A stretch of DNA of 64,000 nucleotides, taken from the NCBI GenBank assembly GCA_937929945.1, contig CALFUK010000190.1, forward strand, positions 1 to 64,000, written 5' to 3'. This DNA is from an uncultured Saprospiraceae bacterium (lineage in GTDB: Bacteria > Bacteroidota > Bacteroidia > Chitinophagales > Saprospiraceae). Made by a program: the position numbers and the translations under genes. The notes under the pieces were generated by a model. The model made no database searches. It saw only the letters and a list, made by a program, of their open reading frames with translations, and was not told where the DNA came from. This document shows, one piece after another, positions 26,695 through 36,403 of this stretch (position 1 is the stretch's first letter; each line of letters opens with the position of its first letter).

Positions 26695-27249
26695 ATGAAA
26701 AGAAGAGAAGCTATAAAATACACCTCGCTATTCGCGGGAGCTGCCCTATCAGCGGGGACGATCTCAGCTATTGTCACTGGCTGCAAAGCTGACCCTGCTC
26801 TGGACTGGAGTCCGAAAGCTCTGGCAGCTGACCAAGCAGTGTTGATTTCGGAGATAGCAGAGAGGATTATCCCTAAGACAGATACACCTGGAGCGAAGGA
26901 TGCCATGGTGAGCAGATTTGTCGACTCGGCTATTGCGACTAATTTCACCTCGGAAGAAAAGTCCAAATTCTTTGATGGCTTGAAGTTGTTTCAGACCATC
27001 AGTCAAGATAAATTCAGCAAGTCATTCACAGAGCTCAGTCCTGAAAATATGGATGAGGTGCTGACAGCAGTGGTCGCTGACGCTAGAGGCAAAGAGGAGC
27101 ACATCTGGCCTGCCATCAAAGGGCTGACCATGACAGGCTTTTTTAATTCTGAAATCGGTATGAAAGAATTTCATAAGTATGATCCAGTGCCAGGAAAGTG
27201 GGTTGGATGCATCGATTATTCAGAGGTGGGTGCCATGTGGTCCTTGTGA
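26695..27249 (+). CDS. Gluconate 2-dehydrogenase subunit 3-like protein (Tat-type signal)
   Basis: Small partner subunit of the preceding GMC oxidoreductase. The N-terminus MKRREAIKYTSLFAGAALSAG is a twin-arginine-like signal, with a possible lipobox at VTGC (Cys 30). The mature part matches the gluconate_2-dh3 family (LISEIAERIIPKTDTPGAKDA, FVDSAIATNF). In related enzymes this subunit carries the flavoprotein across the membrane by hitch-hiking on the Tat signal and helps maturation. At 184 residues it is of usual length. The gap of 121 bp from the GMC gene holds a nested hairpin. Physical pairing with the GMC protein is inferred from family and order. Confidence 0.9.
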   Translation: MKRREAIKYTSLFAGAALSAGTISAIVTGCKADPALDWSPKALAADQAVLISEIAERIIPKTDTPGAKDAMVSRFVDSAIATNFTSEEKSKFFDGLKLFQTISQDKFSKSFTELSPENMDEVLTAVVADARGKEEHIWPAIKGLTMTGFFNSEIGMKEFHKYDPVPGKWVGCIDYSEVGAMWSL

Positions 27250-27380
27250 TGGAAGTGACTCTACAGACATTCACTGCATCGACTAGATAATGAAAACTGT
27301 CTATGACTTACTCCGTCAATTTGCCTGAGTAAATGATCTAATGGATCGTAAGTCATCGTATCAAAAAATATAAATGATAT

Positions 27381-28361
27381 ATGCAAAATCGCAGAAAATT
27401 TATCCAACAAGGTAGCTACCTGGCAGCAGCGGGTGCTATGACTCCTTTATTCATGGCTTGTAGCCAGTCAAAAAAGCCAATGGACGGAATTCGAAATAAC
27501 AGTGCTGCTTCTCAGGATGCCATGTTTTTCAAGATTTCCTTGGCGCAGTGGTCTTTTCACAAGGCTATCTTCGCGGGCGAGTTAGATCACTTAGATTTTG
27601 CAGCTAAGACGAGGAGTCTGGACATGGATGGGATAGAATATGTCAATCAATTTTTCTACGAAAAGGCTGAAGATCAGAACTACCTGAAAGAGATGAATCT
27701 GAGGGCGAATGACGCTGGAGTGAAGCAGTTATTGATCATGGTAGACCGAGAGGGTGGCTTAGGCACGATCGATGATAAAGAGCGCACTGCTGCCGTAGAG
27801 AAGCACTATAAATGGGTGGAGGCTGCCAAGACCTTAGGCTGCCATTCTATCAGAGTGAATGCCTATGGTGAAGGGTCTCGGAGTGATGTCCATGCAGCTG
27901 CTGTCTTAGGGCTCGGGGCATTAGCAGAATATGCTGCTCAAGATGGGCTGAATGTCATTGTCGAAAATCACGGAAGCTACTCTTCTGATGGATCTTGGCT
28001 ATCCTCAGTCATGAAGCAGGTCAATATGAATAATTGTGGGACCTTACCTGATTTTGGTAATTTCTGTACAAAGCGAGAGGGTGGCGCTCTATACGGTGCT
28101 AAGTGCATCGAAGAGTATGATCGCTATCAAGGTGTGACTGATATGATGCCCTTCGCTAAGGCTGTAAGTGCTAAGGCCAATGACTTCGATAATGCTGGAA
28201 ATGAGATCCACACAGACTATATGAAAATCATGAAGATCGTCAAAGACCATGGCTACAGAGGCTACGTGGGTATAGAATATGAAGGTAGCACGATGACCGA
28301 AGAGGCAGGCATCATAGGCACTAGAGATCTCCTCAGAAAGGTAGGTGCTGCTTTGTCTTAG
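27381..28361 (+). CDS. Exported sugar phosphate isomerase/epimerase-like TIM-barrel lipoprotein
   Basis: Second TIM-barrel protein of the cluster, of the xylose-isomerase-like superfamily. A Tat-like start (MQNRRKFIQQGSYLAAAG) and a lipobox FMAC (Cys 27) predict export and lipidation. Likely metal ligands are Glu in VIVENHGSYSS, Asp in LPDFGNFC and Glu in GIEYEG. It is only weakly similar to the protein at 23955, so the two are not recent duplicates. Exported proteins of this type often sit beside GMC/Gfo-type oxidoreductases in Bacteroidota loci for oxidised (3-keto) sugars, which makes this a candidate epimerase or lyase acting after the dehydrogenase. Confidence 0.87.
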   Translation: MQNRRKFIQQGSYLAAAGAMTPLFMACSQSKKPMDGIRNNSAASQDAMFFKISLAQWSFHKAIFAGELDHLDFAAKTRSLDMDGIEYVNQFFYEKAEDQNYLKEMNLRANDAGVKQLLIMVDREGGLGTIDDKERTAAVEKHYKWVEAAKTLGCHSIRVNAYGEGSRSDVHAAAVLGLGALAEYAAQDGLNVIVENHGSYSSDGSWLSSVMKQVNMNNCGTLPDFGNFCTKREGGALYGAKCIEEYDRYQGVTDMMPFAKAVSAKANDFDNAGNEIHTDYMKIMKIVKDHGYRGYVGIEYEGSTMTEEAGIIGTRDLLRKVGAALS

Positions 28362-28782: not shown

Positions 28783-31368
28783 ATGAATATTAAATTTGCA
28801 GCCATCGCTCTGGCATTCGTGATAAGCATCTTACCTCTACTATGCTTCTCTCAGCTGAGTCAAGCTGGTCAGCCATATTCATTCTCTAAGTCAATGAGCC
28901 GAGATAAAATACCCACTGTCAAAATGAAAGCTGTGGATATGTCTGCTATCCGTAGAGAAGATAAGGTAAACGATAAGATGTCAGGCAAGCCATTTAGATT
29001 CGGTGTCGAGCAGACTGTCAATCTCAACTTAAAGAATGCAGGAGCTTGGAATACCCTGCCCAATGGAGATCGTCTCTGGAGACTTGTGATTGAGGATGCT
29101 GATGCGAAGTCAATCAATCTGGTGTATGATGAATTTTACCTTCCTCAGGATGCCAGCTTATACCTGTACAGTGAGAATTATCAGCAAATTTTAGGTGCCT
29201 TCACTGCTCGAAATAATAAGCCAGATGGAAGTTTTGCGACAGCACTCACCACTGGTGATAAGGTGTATTTAGAATATTATGAACCAGCAGCAGTCAAAGG
29301 TAAAGGTGCTATCCAAATAAAGACAGTGGTCCATGGTTATCGATCAGTCTTCACAAAGAGTAATAATGACCTGGGATTCTCAGGAGGATGTAATGTAGAT
29401 ACAGAATGCCCCGAAGGCGATGCTTGGAGAGAGCAGCTGAAGTCTGTGGGTAAAACCATTTCGGGCGGCTCGCTCTGCAGTGGTACGCTCGTCGCTAATA
29501 CCTCTGGTGATCGAAGGCCTTTATTTCTGACAGCGAATCACTGTGGGTTTTCGAATACCGTCGTAGTATATTGGCGATTCGAGCGACCACAGTGCGGATC
29601 AGGCACGCCTGACGATACGCAGACCACCAGCGGTGCCACTATCATAGCAGATGTAGACGGTAATCCTGGCGGTGCCATCAGAAGCTCAGATCATTTGCTC
29701 CTGGAGCTTTTAGAAAATCCAGCTGATGCTTATGATGTATACTTCGCTGGATGGGATGCCTCAGGTGCAACGCCGCAAGGAGTGACGGGCATCCATCACC
29801 CTGCTGGTGATGCTAAAAAGATCAGTATGGACAGCGACCTGCTGACCAGCACCGATTATTTAGATCCTGCTGTGGACCCTAATGAGTCACACTGGAGAGT
29901 GGCAGACTGGGATAGCGGGACCACAGAAGGTGGCTCGTCAGGCTCTGCTTTATTTGATGATGCGACGAAGAGAATTATTGGGCTATTGTCTGGAGGATTT
30001 GCAGCCTGTGGTAATGATGATGATGATTACTATGGCAAGTTCTCATTTGCCTGGCTGAATGAAGGGACGACTGAGCCCAGTGAAAGACTGAAAGACTGGC
30101 TGGACCCTAATGACACTGGGGTATCAGCGATTGATGGCTATGGAGTGTCTGACATCATATTGAAAGCTGGTGATGCAGTACGGAGCACTTGTGATTCAGA
30201 TATACTCTATCAATTTGATCTGATGCTATCTGACCAAGTCACAAATGATGTGAGCCTCAATGCTTCAGGGGCTCCTACAGCTGTCACCACCAGTTTTGAT
30301 ATGAATCCGATATCTCAGAGTGGATCATATAGCTTGATGCTTACAGGTATCGCGAGTGCTGCTCCTGGTAGCTATTCAATCATAGTGACGGCGACTGATG
30401 GCACGACAACTGCTGATTTTGCCTTCCAGCTGGTCATAGAAAATAACATAACTGCTGAGCCTGTCCTGTTAAGTCCATCGGATGGGACCAGGGTCGAAAC
30501 CTTAAATCCTGAACTCACTTGGATTGATATCAATGCAGCTTCATATCAAGTAGAAATTTCAACTGATATGAGCTTTAGCACCGTAGTTCAGACTAGTATT
30601 TCTAACACCGCCTCAGTCAGTATACCTGACTTAATGAGTAACACCATTTATTATTGGAGGGTCAAGGGGGAGAATACCTGCGGTGAAGGCCCCGCTAGTG
30701 CAGTCTTCCGTTTTCAAACCAGCGATATCTCTTGCAGGACATATAGTAGTATGGATACACCGATCAGTATTTCTGACGGCCCGCCTCCTAATGAAATCAC
30801 TAGTGTCATATCTGTGTCTGATGCAGTTAGCATTTCTGACGTAAATGTATTGGGACTCGAGATTCAGCATACTTGGATTTCAGATTTGCTTGTGAGTATA
30901 GAGCATGTCGAGACAGGGACTTCTGCGCTTATTATCGAAAATGCATGTGATGATGAATTCAATATTTTAGGTGACTTTGATGATGCTGGAGACGCACTGG
31001 AGTGTCCACCCTCTGGAGGTGTCTATGTCAGTAAGGAGCCGCTGTCAATTTTTAGTTCAGAATCTTCTGCTGGTAGCTGGAGACTCACCGTCGAAGACCA
31101 ATTTACAGAGGATGGAGGCTCACTCGAGTCATGGTCAATAGAGGTCTGTGGTAGCTTTTCCGATCTGGACTGTCCTCCGAATTATGATTTGACTGGCGCT
31201 CAAAGTCAAAATCAGGTGTATGTGAGTGATGGCAAGATTAGTTCAGAGCAAATCATCACGAGCAATGCTGTTGTGGAGTATAATGCAGGCAACTCAGTAT
31301 TGCTGAAGAAAACATTTGAAACTACACTTGATGTCTCGTTTCATGCTTATATAGATGGGTGTAACTGA
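28783..31368 (+). CDS. Secreted lysyl-endopeptidase-like serine protease with P-domain and 3-coathanger stack C-terminus
   Basis: Extracellular chymotrypsin-fold protease. The signal peptide is followed by a pro-region of about 180 residues, then a catalytic domain resembling lysyl endopeptidase: CNVDTECPEGDAW, His 253 in LTANHCG, Asp 303 in SSDHLLLELLENP and Ser 386 in EGGSSGSALF. After it come an Ig/FnIII-like region (PVLLSPSDGTRVETLNPELTW, YYWRVKGENTCGEGPAS), a proprotein-convertase P-like domain (about 665-800, WISDLLVSIEHVETG, GSWRLTVEDQF) and the C-terminal '3-coathanger stack' domain ending in VSFHAYIDGCN. The last domain is shared with the M36 protease and the protein at 59172. Stand-alone transcript by position. 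Confidence 0.9.
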   Translation: MNIKFAAIALAFVISILPLLCFSQLSQAGQPYSFSKSMSRDKIPTVKMKAVDMSAIRREDKVNDKMSGKPFRFGVEQTVNLNLKNAGAWNTLPNGDRLWRLVIEDADAKSINLVYDEFYLPQDASLYLYSENYQQILGAFTARNNKPDGSFATALTTGDKVYLEYYEPAAVKGKGAIQIKTVVHGYRSVFTKSNNDLGFSGGCNVDTECPEGDAWREQLKSVGKTISGGSLCSGTLVANTSGDRRPLFLTANHCGFSNTVVVYWRFERPQCGSGTPDDTQTTSGATIIADVDGNPGGAIRSSDHLLLELLENPADAYDVYFAGWDASGATPQGVTGIHHPAGDAKKISMDSDLLTSTDYLDPAVDPNESHWRVADWDSGTTEGGSSGSALFDDATKRIIGLLSGGFAACGNDDDDYYGKFSFAWLNEGTTEPSERLKDWLDPNDTGVSAIDGYGVSDIILKAGDAVRSTCDSDILYQFDLMLSDQVTNDVSLNASGAPTAVTTSFDMNPISQSGSYSLMLTGIASAAPGSYSIIVTATDGTTTADFAFQLVIENNITAEPVLLSPSDGTRVETLNPELTWIDINAASYQVEISTDMSFSTVVQTSISNTASVSIPDLMSNTIYYWRVKGENTCGEGPASAVFRFQTSDISCRTYSSMDTPISISDGPPPNEITSVISVSDAVSISDVNVLGLEIQHTWISDLLVSIEHVETGTSALIIENACDDEFNILGDFDDAGDALECPPSGGVYVSKEPLSIFSSESSAGSWRLTVEDQFTEDGGSLESWSIEVCGSFSDLDCPPNYDLTGAQSQNQVYVSDGKISSEQIITSNAVVEYNAGNSVLLKKTFETTLDVSFHAYIDGCN

Positions 31369-31407: not shown

Positions 31408-31590
31408 TTATAAGGACGTGGCAGTTTTAGGGCTTACTTGTTCAGTGGCACCATGGATGATCTCATAAATACCCCAATCGATGCGTTTCTGAAACTCCAA
31501 TTCTGAGATGAACTGAATGATATTAGTAGATACGTGCTTGATAATGTATCCGACGGGTTTCTTCTCGATAATTTGAATTTGTTGAACCAT
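31408..31590 (-). CDS. Unrecognised microprotein, paralogue 1 (60 aa)
   Basis: I do not recognise this family. It is taken as a gene because it aligns without gaps over 42 residues with the 51-residue product at 31982-32137 (13 identities plus many conservative changes). Shared positions are I-x-I, K, GY(I/V)I, S, Q-x-I, R(I/V) and the motif WG(I/L)Y(E/D)(I/L). It has no signal peptide or membrane segment, so it is probably cytoplasmic. It lies in otherwise gene-poor DNA, downstream of and opposite to the protease gene. Confidence 0.6.
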   Translation of the reverse strand: MVQQIQIIEKKPVGYIIKHVSTNIIQFISELEFQKRIDWGIYEIIHGATEQVSPKTATSL

Positions 31591-31981
31591 TGGAGTTGAT
31601 TTCTATAATATGTAAAACAAATTAGACTAAATAGTAATGTTTATCAAATTTAAAGTCGAATGTTCTTAATGTGTAGGCGTATTGGTGAATACCTGTAAGT
31701 GATCTGTAGACGACTTTGTTAACATATTATGAATAATACGTATATGATAGTTTCACGTTTGATTTTCGAATAGCAATTTAGTTTGGGAAAAGTTAAAGAT
31801 GCAAGCTTCTGGTGACACACTTAGGGATGTGTGAAGAGCCTAAAGAATGGGCTGGTACTGCTTAAGGATATAATTTGTTATGATCTAACCCAGGATAATT
31901 AATTTTGGAATCGCCCCTTTAGCAAAGAGAAGCCTTTACAAATCATACTGACGAATAACTCCGATATAATTAAAATATTTT
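31591..31981. other. 391-bp spacer between the two microprotein genes
   Basis: AT-rich, with no plausible ORF on either strand. It presumably contains the promoter of the 60-residue microprotein near its right-hand end on the - strand minus the coding part; only a weak CACAC/GTGTG hairpin near 31815-31840 was noticed. Confidence 0.3.
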
Positions 31982-32137
31982 CTAGTTTAACATCTCTGGG
32001 TTCATGAGGTCGTAGAGTCCCCATTTGACTCGATTATTCAGTAATCCTTTGGGTATGATCTGCTTGGCTTTGGATGAGAGAATGGTGATGACGTAGCCTT
32101 TATCAAGCTTTTTATCGATTTTTATTTTTAAGGGCAT
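31982..32137 (-). CDS. Unrecognised microprotein, paralogue 2 (51 aa)
   Basis: Read on the - strand from ATG at 32137 to TAG at 31982. The product begins MPLKIKIDKKLDKGYVITIL and ends RVKWGLYDLMNPEMLN. It matches the 60-residue protein at 31408 with identical spacing between the GY(V/I)I block and the R(V/I)xWG(L/I)Y block. Both genes have TAGAAA about 12-14 bases before the ATG. It is basic and soluble-looking. Conservation of a gapless alignment between two separate short frames is the evidence for coding; the function is unknown. Confidence 0.6.
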   Translation of the reverse strand: MPLKIKIDKKLDKGYVITILSSKAKQIIPKGLLNNRVKWGLYDLMNPEMLN

Positions 32138-34604: not shown

Positions 34605-35189
34605 GTGAATAGGCACGAGCAAACAGAAATAATAAAAAATTCATTTCCGTTTCTGACAGATGACGATGTTGTCCAGATCTTGGACATAGCAGAATACAGA
34701 GCTTGTAAGCACCGTACAGTCCTCATCAAAAGTAAAGAGATTAACAACACCATATTTTTTATCATGGAGGGCATGATCAGAGGCTACTTTATCAATGATA
34801 AGGGCATAGAGAAGAATATATTCCTTAGGCCTGAGCGTACCCTATCTGGCGACCCTAACTCTCTTTTCGAGCAAAAAGAAGCTAAATTCACCTTTGAAGC
34901 CATCACTGATTCTAAGTTTTTGTGCTTTCAGCAATCTGACCTACAAGCACTCATGAGCCGTAACCCGCGCATCATGAAGCTATACATGGCTGGCCTTCAG
35001 GAGAATATTCAGACGATGGTGATGCGCATCGAGTCGCTTATAGACCGTATGCCTGAGCAGCGTTATGATGAGCTGCTGAGTAAGCATCCTCAGTTTTTCC
35101 AAAAAGCTTATCATAAGCACATCGCTAACTATCTGGGGATCACCTCCGTCTCGTTGTCAAGAATCATCAAGCGTAAGCTCCAGAAGTAG
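34605..35189 (+). CDS. Crp/Fnr-family transcriptional regulator
   Basis: Cytoplasmic regulator of 194 residues. An N-terminal cyclic-nucleotide-binding-like domain (about 20-115: TVLIKSKEINNTIFFIMEGM, FLRPERTLSGDPNSLF, FEAITDSKFLCF) is followed by a dimer helix and a C-terminal helix-turn-helix (HKHIANYLGITSVSLSRIIK). The cAMP-contact Arg-Ser pair of true Crp is not evident, nor are Fnr Cys ligands, so the effector is unknown, as in most Bacteroidota members. The start is a GTG at 34605; no in-frame ATG exists near it. Possibly regulates the hydroxylase/CDGSH gene 128 bp downstream. Confidence 0.88.
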   Translation: MNRHEQTEIIKNSFPFLTDDDVVQILDIAEYRACKHRTVLIKSKEINNTIFFIMEGMIRGYFINDKGIEKNIFLRPERTLSGDPNSLFEQKEAKFTFEAITDSKFLCFQQSDLQALMSRNPRIMKLYMAGLQENIQTMVMRIESLIDRMPEQRYDELLSKHPQFFQKAYHKHIANYLGITSVSLSRIIKRKLQK

Positions 35190-35317
35190 GCGTATCTTAA
35201 AGTGCAGGATGTCGATAGCTTGACTTATGATAATAAAGGAAGCTCAGCATCAGAACTTAACGAGTGTATAGCTGAATCCCATTCATTCTGTTCTAACTTT
35301 AGAAAAAGTATAAGAAC

Positions 35318-36403
35318 ATGGAAACACTTTTAAACACCCCTAACATAGATCTTTACGCTGTGCTTGCTATTCTGGGCCTATTCGGTGCCGTAGAGTTTAT
35401 CTTAGGGCACTATCATAATACACAGCGCTCCAAGGATGACTGGATATTAGAGTCGGTTGGCTTCTTCGTTGTCGCTGGCACCAAGCTCTTGATTGTATTT
35501 CTGCTGGTGACCATTGCAGATGGGCTATTCCCACAAGCCTCTAATGCACTGCAGCACTGGTCACTCTGGCTATCCATACCGTTCTATCTTTTTATTGATG
35601 ATGTAGCTCAGTACTGGTATCATAGGTCAGCACACGAGTATGAGTGGCTGTGGAAGCATCACAGAGTACATCACCAAGCAGAGGACATGGGTATCCTCAC
35701 GGCATACCGTAACAGCTGGGTATACTATCTCCTGATGCCTAATCTCTGGTGGGGTGGAGTAGCTACTTATTTAGGGCTCGCGCCAGCGGTGATCTTTGGA
35801 CTGATCTTCAAGCAGATCATTGTCACCAGTACGCATAGCACATGGAAGTGGGATAAAGTGCTTTATAGGGTCAAAGCACTGCATCCAGTCGCATGGGTCA
35901 TAGAGCATATCTTCATTACACCTGCATTTCATTTTGCCCACCATGGTAAGTCTCAGGCTGATCACATCAGTGATCCTAATGGTAACTTTGGCAATACCTT
36001 TTCGCTGTGGGATCAGATGTTTGGTACGGCAAAATTCACCAGGCTTTACCCAGCAGAGTTTGGACTGCAGACCGACCCTGTGGATCCGTGGTACGCACAG
36101 CTACTCTATCCCTTCCTGAAGTCGCCGAAAGAAGGGAGCGAAATATCTAAGAGCTACAAAAAAGAAAAACACATCGGTCAGGAACCACTCAGGACAACTT
36201 TAGAAGCGGGTAGTTATCTGTATTGTCAGTGCGGCTACAGCAGTGAGCAGCCCTTCTGCAATGGCGCTCATCATGGCAGCAAGTTCAAGCCCTTGGTGCT
36301 CGACATCAAGAAGTCGACTAAGGTCTCGCTCTGTACTTGTAAGCTATCTAAGACACCGCCTTATTGTGATAACTCGCATTTGAAAATGGATGTGAATGCT
36401 TAG
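35318..36403 (+). CDS. Sterol-desaturase/fatty acid hydroxylase fused to two CDGSH iron-sulfur motifs
   Basis: Integral membrane di-iron oxygenase of the fatty acid hydroxylase superfamily. About four membrane segments carry His clusters HRSAHEYEWLWKHHRVHH and FHFAHHGKSQADH. A C-terminal extension holds two CDGSH-type 2Fe-2S sites: Cys303, Cys305, Cys314, His318 (CQCGYSSEQPFCNGAH) and Cys339, Cys341, Cys350, His354 (CTCKLSKTPPYCDNSH). The usual Asp-Gly is Asn-Gly in the first and Asp-Asn in the second, but all cluster ligands remain. The fusion suggests that the iron-sulfur module passes electrons to the di-iron site or senses redox state; the substrate (lipid, sterol or carotenoid-like) is unknown. 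Confidence 0.9.
   Translation: METLLNTPNIDLYAVLAILGLFGAVEFILGHYHNTQRSKDDWILESVGFFVVAGTKLLIVFLLVTIADGLFPQASNALQHWSLWLSIPFYLFIDDVAQYWYHRSAHEYEWLWKHHRVHHQAEDMGILTAYRNSWVYYLLMPNLWWGGVATYLGLAPAVIFGLIFKQIIVTSTHSTWKWDKVLYRVKALHPVAWVIEHIFITPAFHFAHHGKSQADHISDPNGNFGNTFSLWDQMFGTAKFTRLYPAEFGLQTDPVDPWYAQLLYPFLKSPKEGSEISKSYKKEKHIGQEPLRTTLEAGSYLYCQCGYSSEQPFCNGAHHGSKFKPLVLDIKKSTKVSLCTCKLSKTPPYCDNSHLKMDVNA

Follow-up and report, generated by a model that had tools for sequence, protein, structure and literature searches.

In the window analysed here, a 64,000-nucleotide stretch of DNA from an uncultured Saprospiraceae bacterium, two small ORFs with ATG starts lie on the minus strand in seemingly empty DNA: P1 (31408–31590, 60 aa) and P2 (31982–32137, 51 aa), separated on the same strand by a spacer of 391 bp (31591–31981). 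A first-pass annotation, made from the sequence letters, had described exactly these frames, lengths and spacing and had proposed that the two products are paralogues. The proposal is borne out: residues 1–46 align without a gap and with 14 identities, initiator Met included (the earlier count was 13 over 42 residues), single-pair BLASTP gives E = 2e-7, and the BLOSUM62 local score is 68, compared to 44 for the best of 5000 shuffles of P2. Since no shuffle comes near the observed score, the relationship is real. The two proteins differ in charge, P1 being near neutral (pI 6.7) and P2 basic (pI 9.9). Sigma-70 promoters around the pair are at chance level and no terminators were found; the separate transcripts that the first-pass annotation read from the spacing are not confirmed. 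Scanning the window for Rfam families and tRNAs returned no match.

Conservation of the locus in congeneric genomes

P1 and P2 are the only family copies found in their own genome. Both available congeners (G001 and G002) carry three copies in tandem at the equivalent locus, and each has one further copy behind moaA-moeA. Along the gene strand the order in the congeners is a (P2 type), b and c (P1 type), followed, in convergent orientation, by the genes for the TIM barrel and for gluconate dehydrogenase subunit 3; the window keeps the order a to c but lacks b. The orthologues of P1 are found at L032:8023-8181 (G001) and L033:8370-8522 (G002), those of P2 at L032:6859-7017 and L033:7754-7915, and in a tree based on few columns and with modest support P1 joins the c copies and P2 falls close to the a copies. 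Synteny is anchored on the P1 side of all three congeners by the genes for gluconate 2-dehydrogenase subunit 3 and a xylose-isomerase-like TIM barrel (26695–28361, plus strand, in the window), and on the P2 side by a cNMP-binding regulator and a fatty-acid hydroxylase/CDGSH gene (34605–36403, plus strand; L033:1965-3737). The hydroxylase gene is present in the window and G002, and L032 retains the regulator at 1140-1733. Two further observations concern these flanks. The window's hydroxylase (35318–36403, plus strand) is fused to two CDGSH iron-binding motifs, and a gene for a trypsin-like protease with a proprotein-convertase P-domain (28783–31368, plus strand), lying between P1 and the TIM-barrel gene, is absent from the corresponding place in both congeners.

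The spacer between P1 and P2 is the position occupied by b in both congeners, and no recognisable remnant of this third copy was detected in it (best tblastn E 0.11, frames full of stops). The b copy is poorly conserved between G001 and G002, therefore copy loss belongs to the picture. The G001 representative (L032:7655-7846, plus strand) has lost the conserved Trp, has an unrelated C-terminus and resembles a decaying paralogue.

Over residues 1–45, P1 is 60–62% identical to its orthologues. Codon by codon, P1 retains 27–28 of 45 residues and P2 25–29 of 50, while 28–42% of the bases differ, and in neutral simulations the observed amino-acid identity was reached in only 0–3 of 5000 replicates. 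The codon changes show a strong synonymous bias, and dN/dS against G002 (NG86), calculated with dS near saturation, comes to 0.17 for P1 and P2 alike. The frames are present and intact in both congeners, the dN/dS against G002 is below 1, and both genes have orthologues under purifying selection at a conserved locus; a lack of homologous frames or their disruption, named in the first-pass annotation as grounds for discarding the pair, was not what we found. P1 and P2 are real, conserved, selected and duplicated protein genes.

A small-protein family of the Saprospiraceae

A profile built from the window-type copies picked up a second type of small ORF, referred to below as the cold-shock type after the genes beside it, with the consensus SIKVKVxKETSxTVTVxxxSLNRKMPVPRxEFEKRVxxGLYEVV. 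The two types are clearly related (hhalign probability 95.6%, E 1e-8; hmmsearch E 8e-12 to 2e-8) and share the pattern K-[IV]-x-[IV] ... P-x-x-x-[FL]-x-x-R-[IV]-x-x-G-x-Y-[ED]-[IV], in which Gly40 is invariant and Tyr42 nearly so. Gly14 and Trp39 mark the window type. P1 and P2 match the other branch, carry Gly40 and Tyr42, and are basic at position 36. The family is mostly basic, with a median core pI of 9.9, P1 being exceptional at 6.7, and no signal peptide was seen in its proteins by inspection. A putative shared promoter motif, TAnnTTTG, precedes 4 of 36 members where shuffles give 2.6 on average, a difference that is not significant.

With a combined profile of 29 members (A9, which includes P1 and P2 by construction, as do their own A9 scores), the family was found at E 0.01 or better in 38 of 150 Saprospiraceae genomes, representing 29 of 112 genera. 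A draw of 398 genomes from the whole order yielded 25 with matches, 22 of them in Saprospiraceae; the other three had per-genome E values of 0.004–0.005, which is what chance gives in 398 genomes. When 296 genomes drawn from across the phylum were searched with the narrower profile A3, a single match appeared, again within Saprospiraceae. Among named public genomes, the carriers of the second type were Saprospiraceae-type Bacteroidota, including Phaeodactylibacter and Flavilitoribacter nigricans. That the family exists is almost certain; its proteins are about 50–60 aa long and it is restricted to Saprospiraceae, no member being reliably found outside.

None of the 29 A9 members has a credible match in Pfam. 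For the members tested, there was no credible match in NCBIfam, PHROGs or PADLOC and no significant one in PDB, and viral contigs contained no relative. The literature, within the terms tried, does not report the family. As PADLOC gave nothing, a defence-system family was rejected. The earlier suggestion of a small paralogous pair from an unrecognised family therefore holds, for a conserved family under selection and without a Pfam or NCBIfam match.

Gene neighbourhoods of the relatives

At 24 named loci, within about 2 kb and on the same strand, we found a cold-shock gene (CSD, PF00313) in 14 cases and a gene that we call YYFTIK in 16, while rpoD was immediately upstream in five and the ribosomal protein gene bS21 in one; several of these loci come from one genus, so that the counts are not all independent. 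Pfam confirmed the identity of the neighbours (CSD 1e-18, Ribosomal_S21 7e-15, and sigma-70). In some clusters the order is family member, CSD, YYFTIK, TnsA-like gene and a further family member. The same neighbours accompany divergent members that had not been used to find the named loci (L060, L062-L065, L078, L081, L151, L152 and L167), and bS21 lies near two others (L068 and L069).

Two of these neighbours deserve a description of their own. YYFTIK (L102:4884-5096, plus strand, and homologues; G000:C4:6082-6273) is a second unnamed family, whose proteins of about 70 aa (GKxKYYFTIKSxPNNITxFR...WLGKWDGKKF) match nothing in Pfam. It is widespread in Saprospiraceae, with matches at E below 1e-9 in 10 of the 14 genomes searched, and often adjoins CSD or bS21 genes. 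The small TnsA-like protein (L102:5490-5942, plus strand, and homologues) is conserved in the cold-shock cluster; its similarity to the N-terminus of TnsA-like endonucleases is weak, with a Pfam E of 0.007 that does not pass the cut-off.

Most cold-shock-type members thus share a co-directional cluster with CSD, bS21 or YYFTIK genes, although the family itself is not a CSD. The window members lie outside any such cluster. Like the moeA-locus and G045 copies they are solo genes, and RNA-related neighbours are absent from the window, moeA and thymidine-kinase loci. The window's own genome has CSD and YYFTIK genes elsewhere, with no family member beside them. Gene neighbourhood of this kind suggests a shared process and not a molecular activity.

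Predicted structure and possible function

The AlphaFold2 model of P1, based on 25 sequences, is a beta-beta-beta-helix-beta unit (strands 3–11, 14–19 and 24–29, helix 30–38, short strand 42–44) with pLDDT of at least 90 at 43 of 60 residues, block means of 93–96 over residues 1–40, and a disordered tail. A cold-shock-type member was modelled with the same topology and lower confidence. Foldseek searches against PDB gave best E values of 0.14 and 0.58, neither of them significant. The top neighbours, at E 0.14 and worse, included PWWP, SH3, Tudor, KOW, IF5A and integrase C-terminal barrels, with a similarly weak match to a small subunit of the green sulfur bacterial photosynthetic complex; a viral fold library likewise gave no significant match. 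Because no structural match is significant, an SH3-like reading is a resemblance only and not a classification. The likeness to SH3-like nucleic-acid-binding barrels (KOW of SPT5, IF5A, PWWP) consists of the predicted short antiparallel beta meander plus helix. Unlike those barrels, with which it has no sequence similarity and TM-scores of 0.4–0.5 over 25–48 aligned columns, the family protein stands alone as one unit of about 45 residues that contains a single helix.

Since other members adjoin cold-shock and ribosomal-protein genes, the family proteins probably help to handle RNA. The reading that we favour, although we put it at slightly under an even chance, is that they are small, mostly basic, nucleic-acid-binding (probably RNA-binding) beta-barrels of the cold-shock and translation sphere. 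P1 and P2 would fold into a compact beta-beta-beta-helix-beta unit similar to a small SH3-like barrel, whose basic residues would contact nucleic acid, most likely RNA, and which might act alongside cold-shock and translation functions, e.g. as an RNA chaperone or a regulator of translation or transcripts. Counted against this are the near-neutral P1, the non-significant fold matches and the window-type copies without RNA-related neighbours.

The main rival, tentative and rather less than probable in our estimate, is an SH3- or chromo-like microprotein whose small barrel would bind to another protein (RNA polymerase, a sigma factor, the ribosome or another regulator) instead of nucleic acid. 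SH3, PWWP and Tudor domains among the weak structural neighbours speak for it, as do the five loci directly behind rpoD and the aromatic contact that Gly40, Tyr42 and, in the window type, Trp39 could form; yet it has no significant fold match either, it sits poorly with the mostly basic core, and bacterial chromo-like domains are consistently found in secreted proteins (PMC5906684), whereas the P1/P2 family shows no signal peptide. We regard as improbable a small antitoxin or DNA-binding regulator with an AbrB/MazE-like swapped barrel, or a CsrA-like protein. To the eye, the cold-shock type does recall CsrA/RsmA (PF02599) in its similar size, beta-rich nature and V-x-V ... V-x-R-x-E-[IF]-x-x-R spacing (V-x-R-x-E-F-x-x-R), as the succession of Pro, helix, Gly and strand recalls AbrB, and a phage 'antitoxin' was among the non-significant viral fold matches. 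Against reference sequences, however, hhalign probabilities were 0.1–1.7% for CsrA (hence below 2%) and 0.1–0.5% for AbrB/MazE, and neither CsrA nor AbrB came up among the 50 best fold matches in PDB. The proteins lack the N-terminal strand of CsrA, no CsrA was found above the cut-off in 31 relatives, and there is neither a neighbouring toxin partner nor a PADLOC match. Homology to CsrA and to AbrB/MazE antitoxins was accordingly rejected, in both cases for lack of profile similarity.

That P1 and P2 are non-coding or decaying frames, i.e. chance ORFs or pseudogene remnants, is hardly credible. They are short, lack a recognisable promoter and lie in an AT-rich spacer, and the b copy is poorly conserved in the congeners and gone from the window; but intact orthologues, synonymous bias, the spread of the family over 38 of 150 genomes and a confident fold refute a chance origin. 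One of the two copies may recently have lost its function. As to the roles offered in the first-pass annotation, 'antitoxin-like' fails, with no toxin partner, no antitoxin match in PADLOC, Pfam or NCBIfam and no AbrB/MazE profile similarity, while 'regulators or structural microproteins' is still in keeping with both the small beta-barrel that is predicted and the cold-shock and ribosomal context of the relatives.

Returning to the RNA-binding reading, the ancestral job of the family would have been in the cold-shock response or translation, and the window branch would have left the cold-shock cluster, diverged, relocated and given rise by duplication to solo genes in tandem, three in the congeners and two here. 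In its most specific form, which is doubtful as a whole, the proposal is of minimal (about 45-residue), lineage-specific barrel RNA chaperones or translation regulators in a Saprospiraceae cold-shock operon of CSD, bS21, YYFTIK, TnsA-like and P1/P2-family genes, from which a derived branch escaped and expanded in tandem.

DNA that looked empty in an environmental Bacteroidota genome thus carries selected genes of a family absent from Pfam and NCBIfam. Through its tie to a recurrent cold-shock/bS21 cluster, in a lineage in which a search of 31 relatives detected no CsrA, this family offers a testable handle on stress RNA biology.
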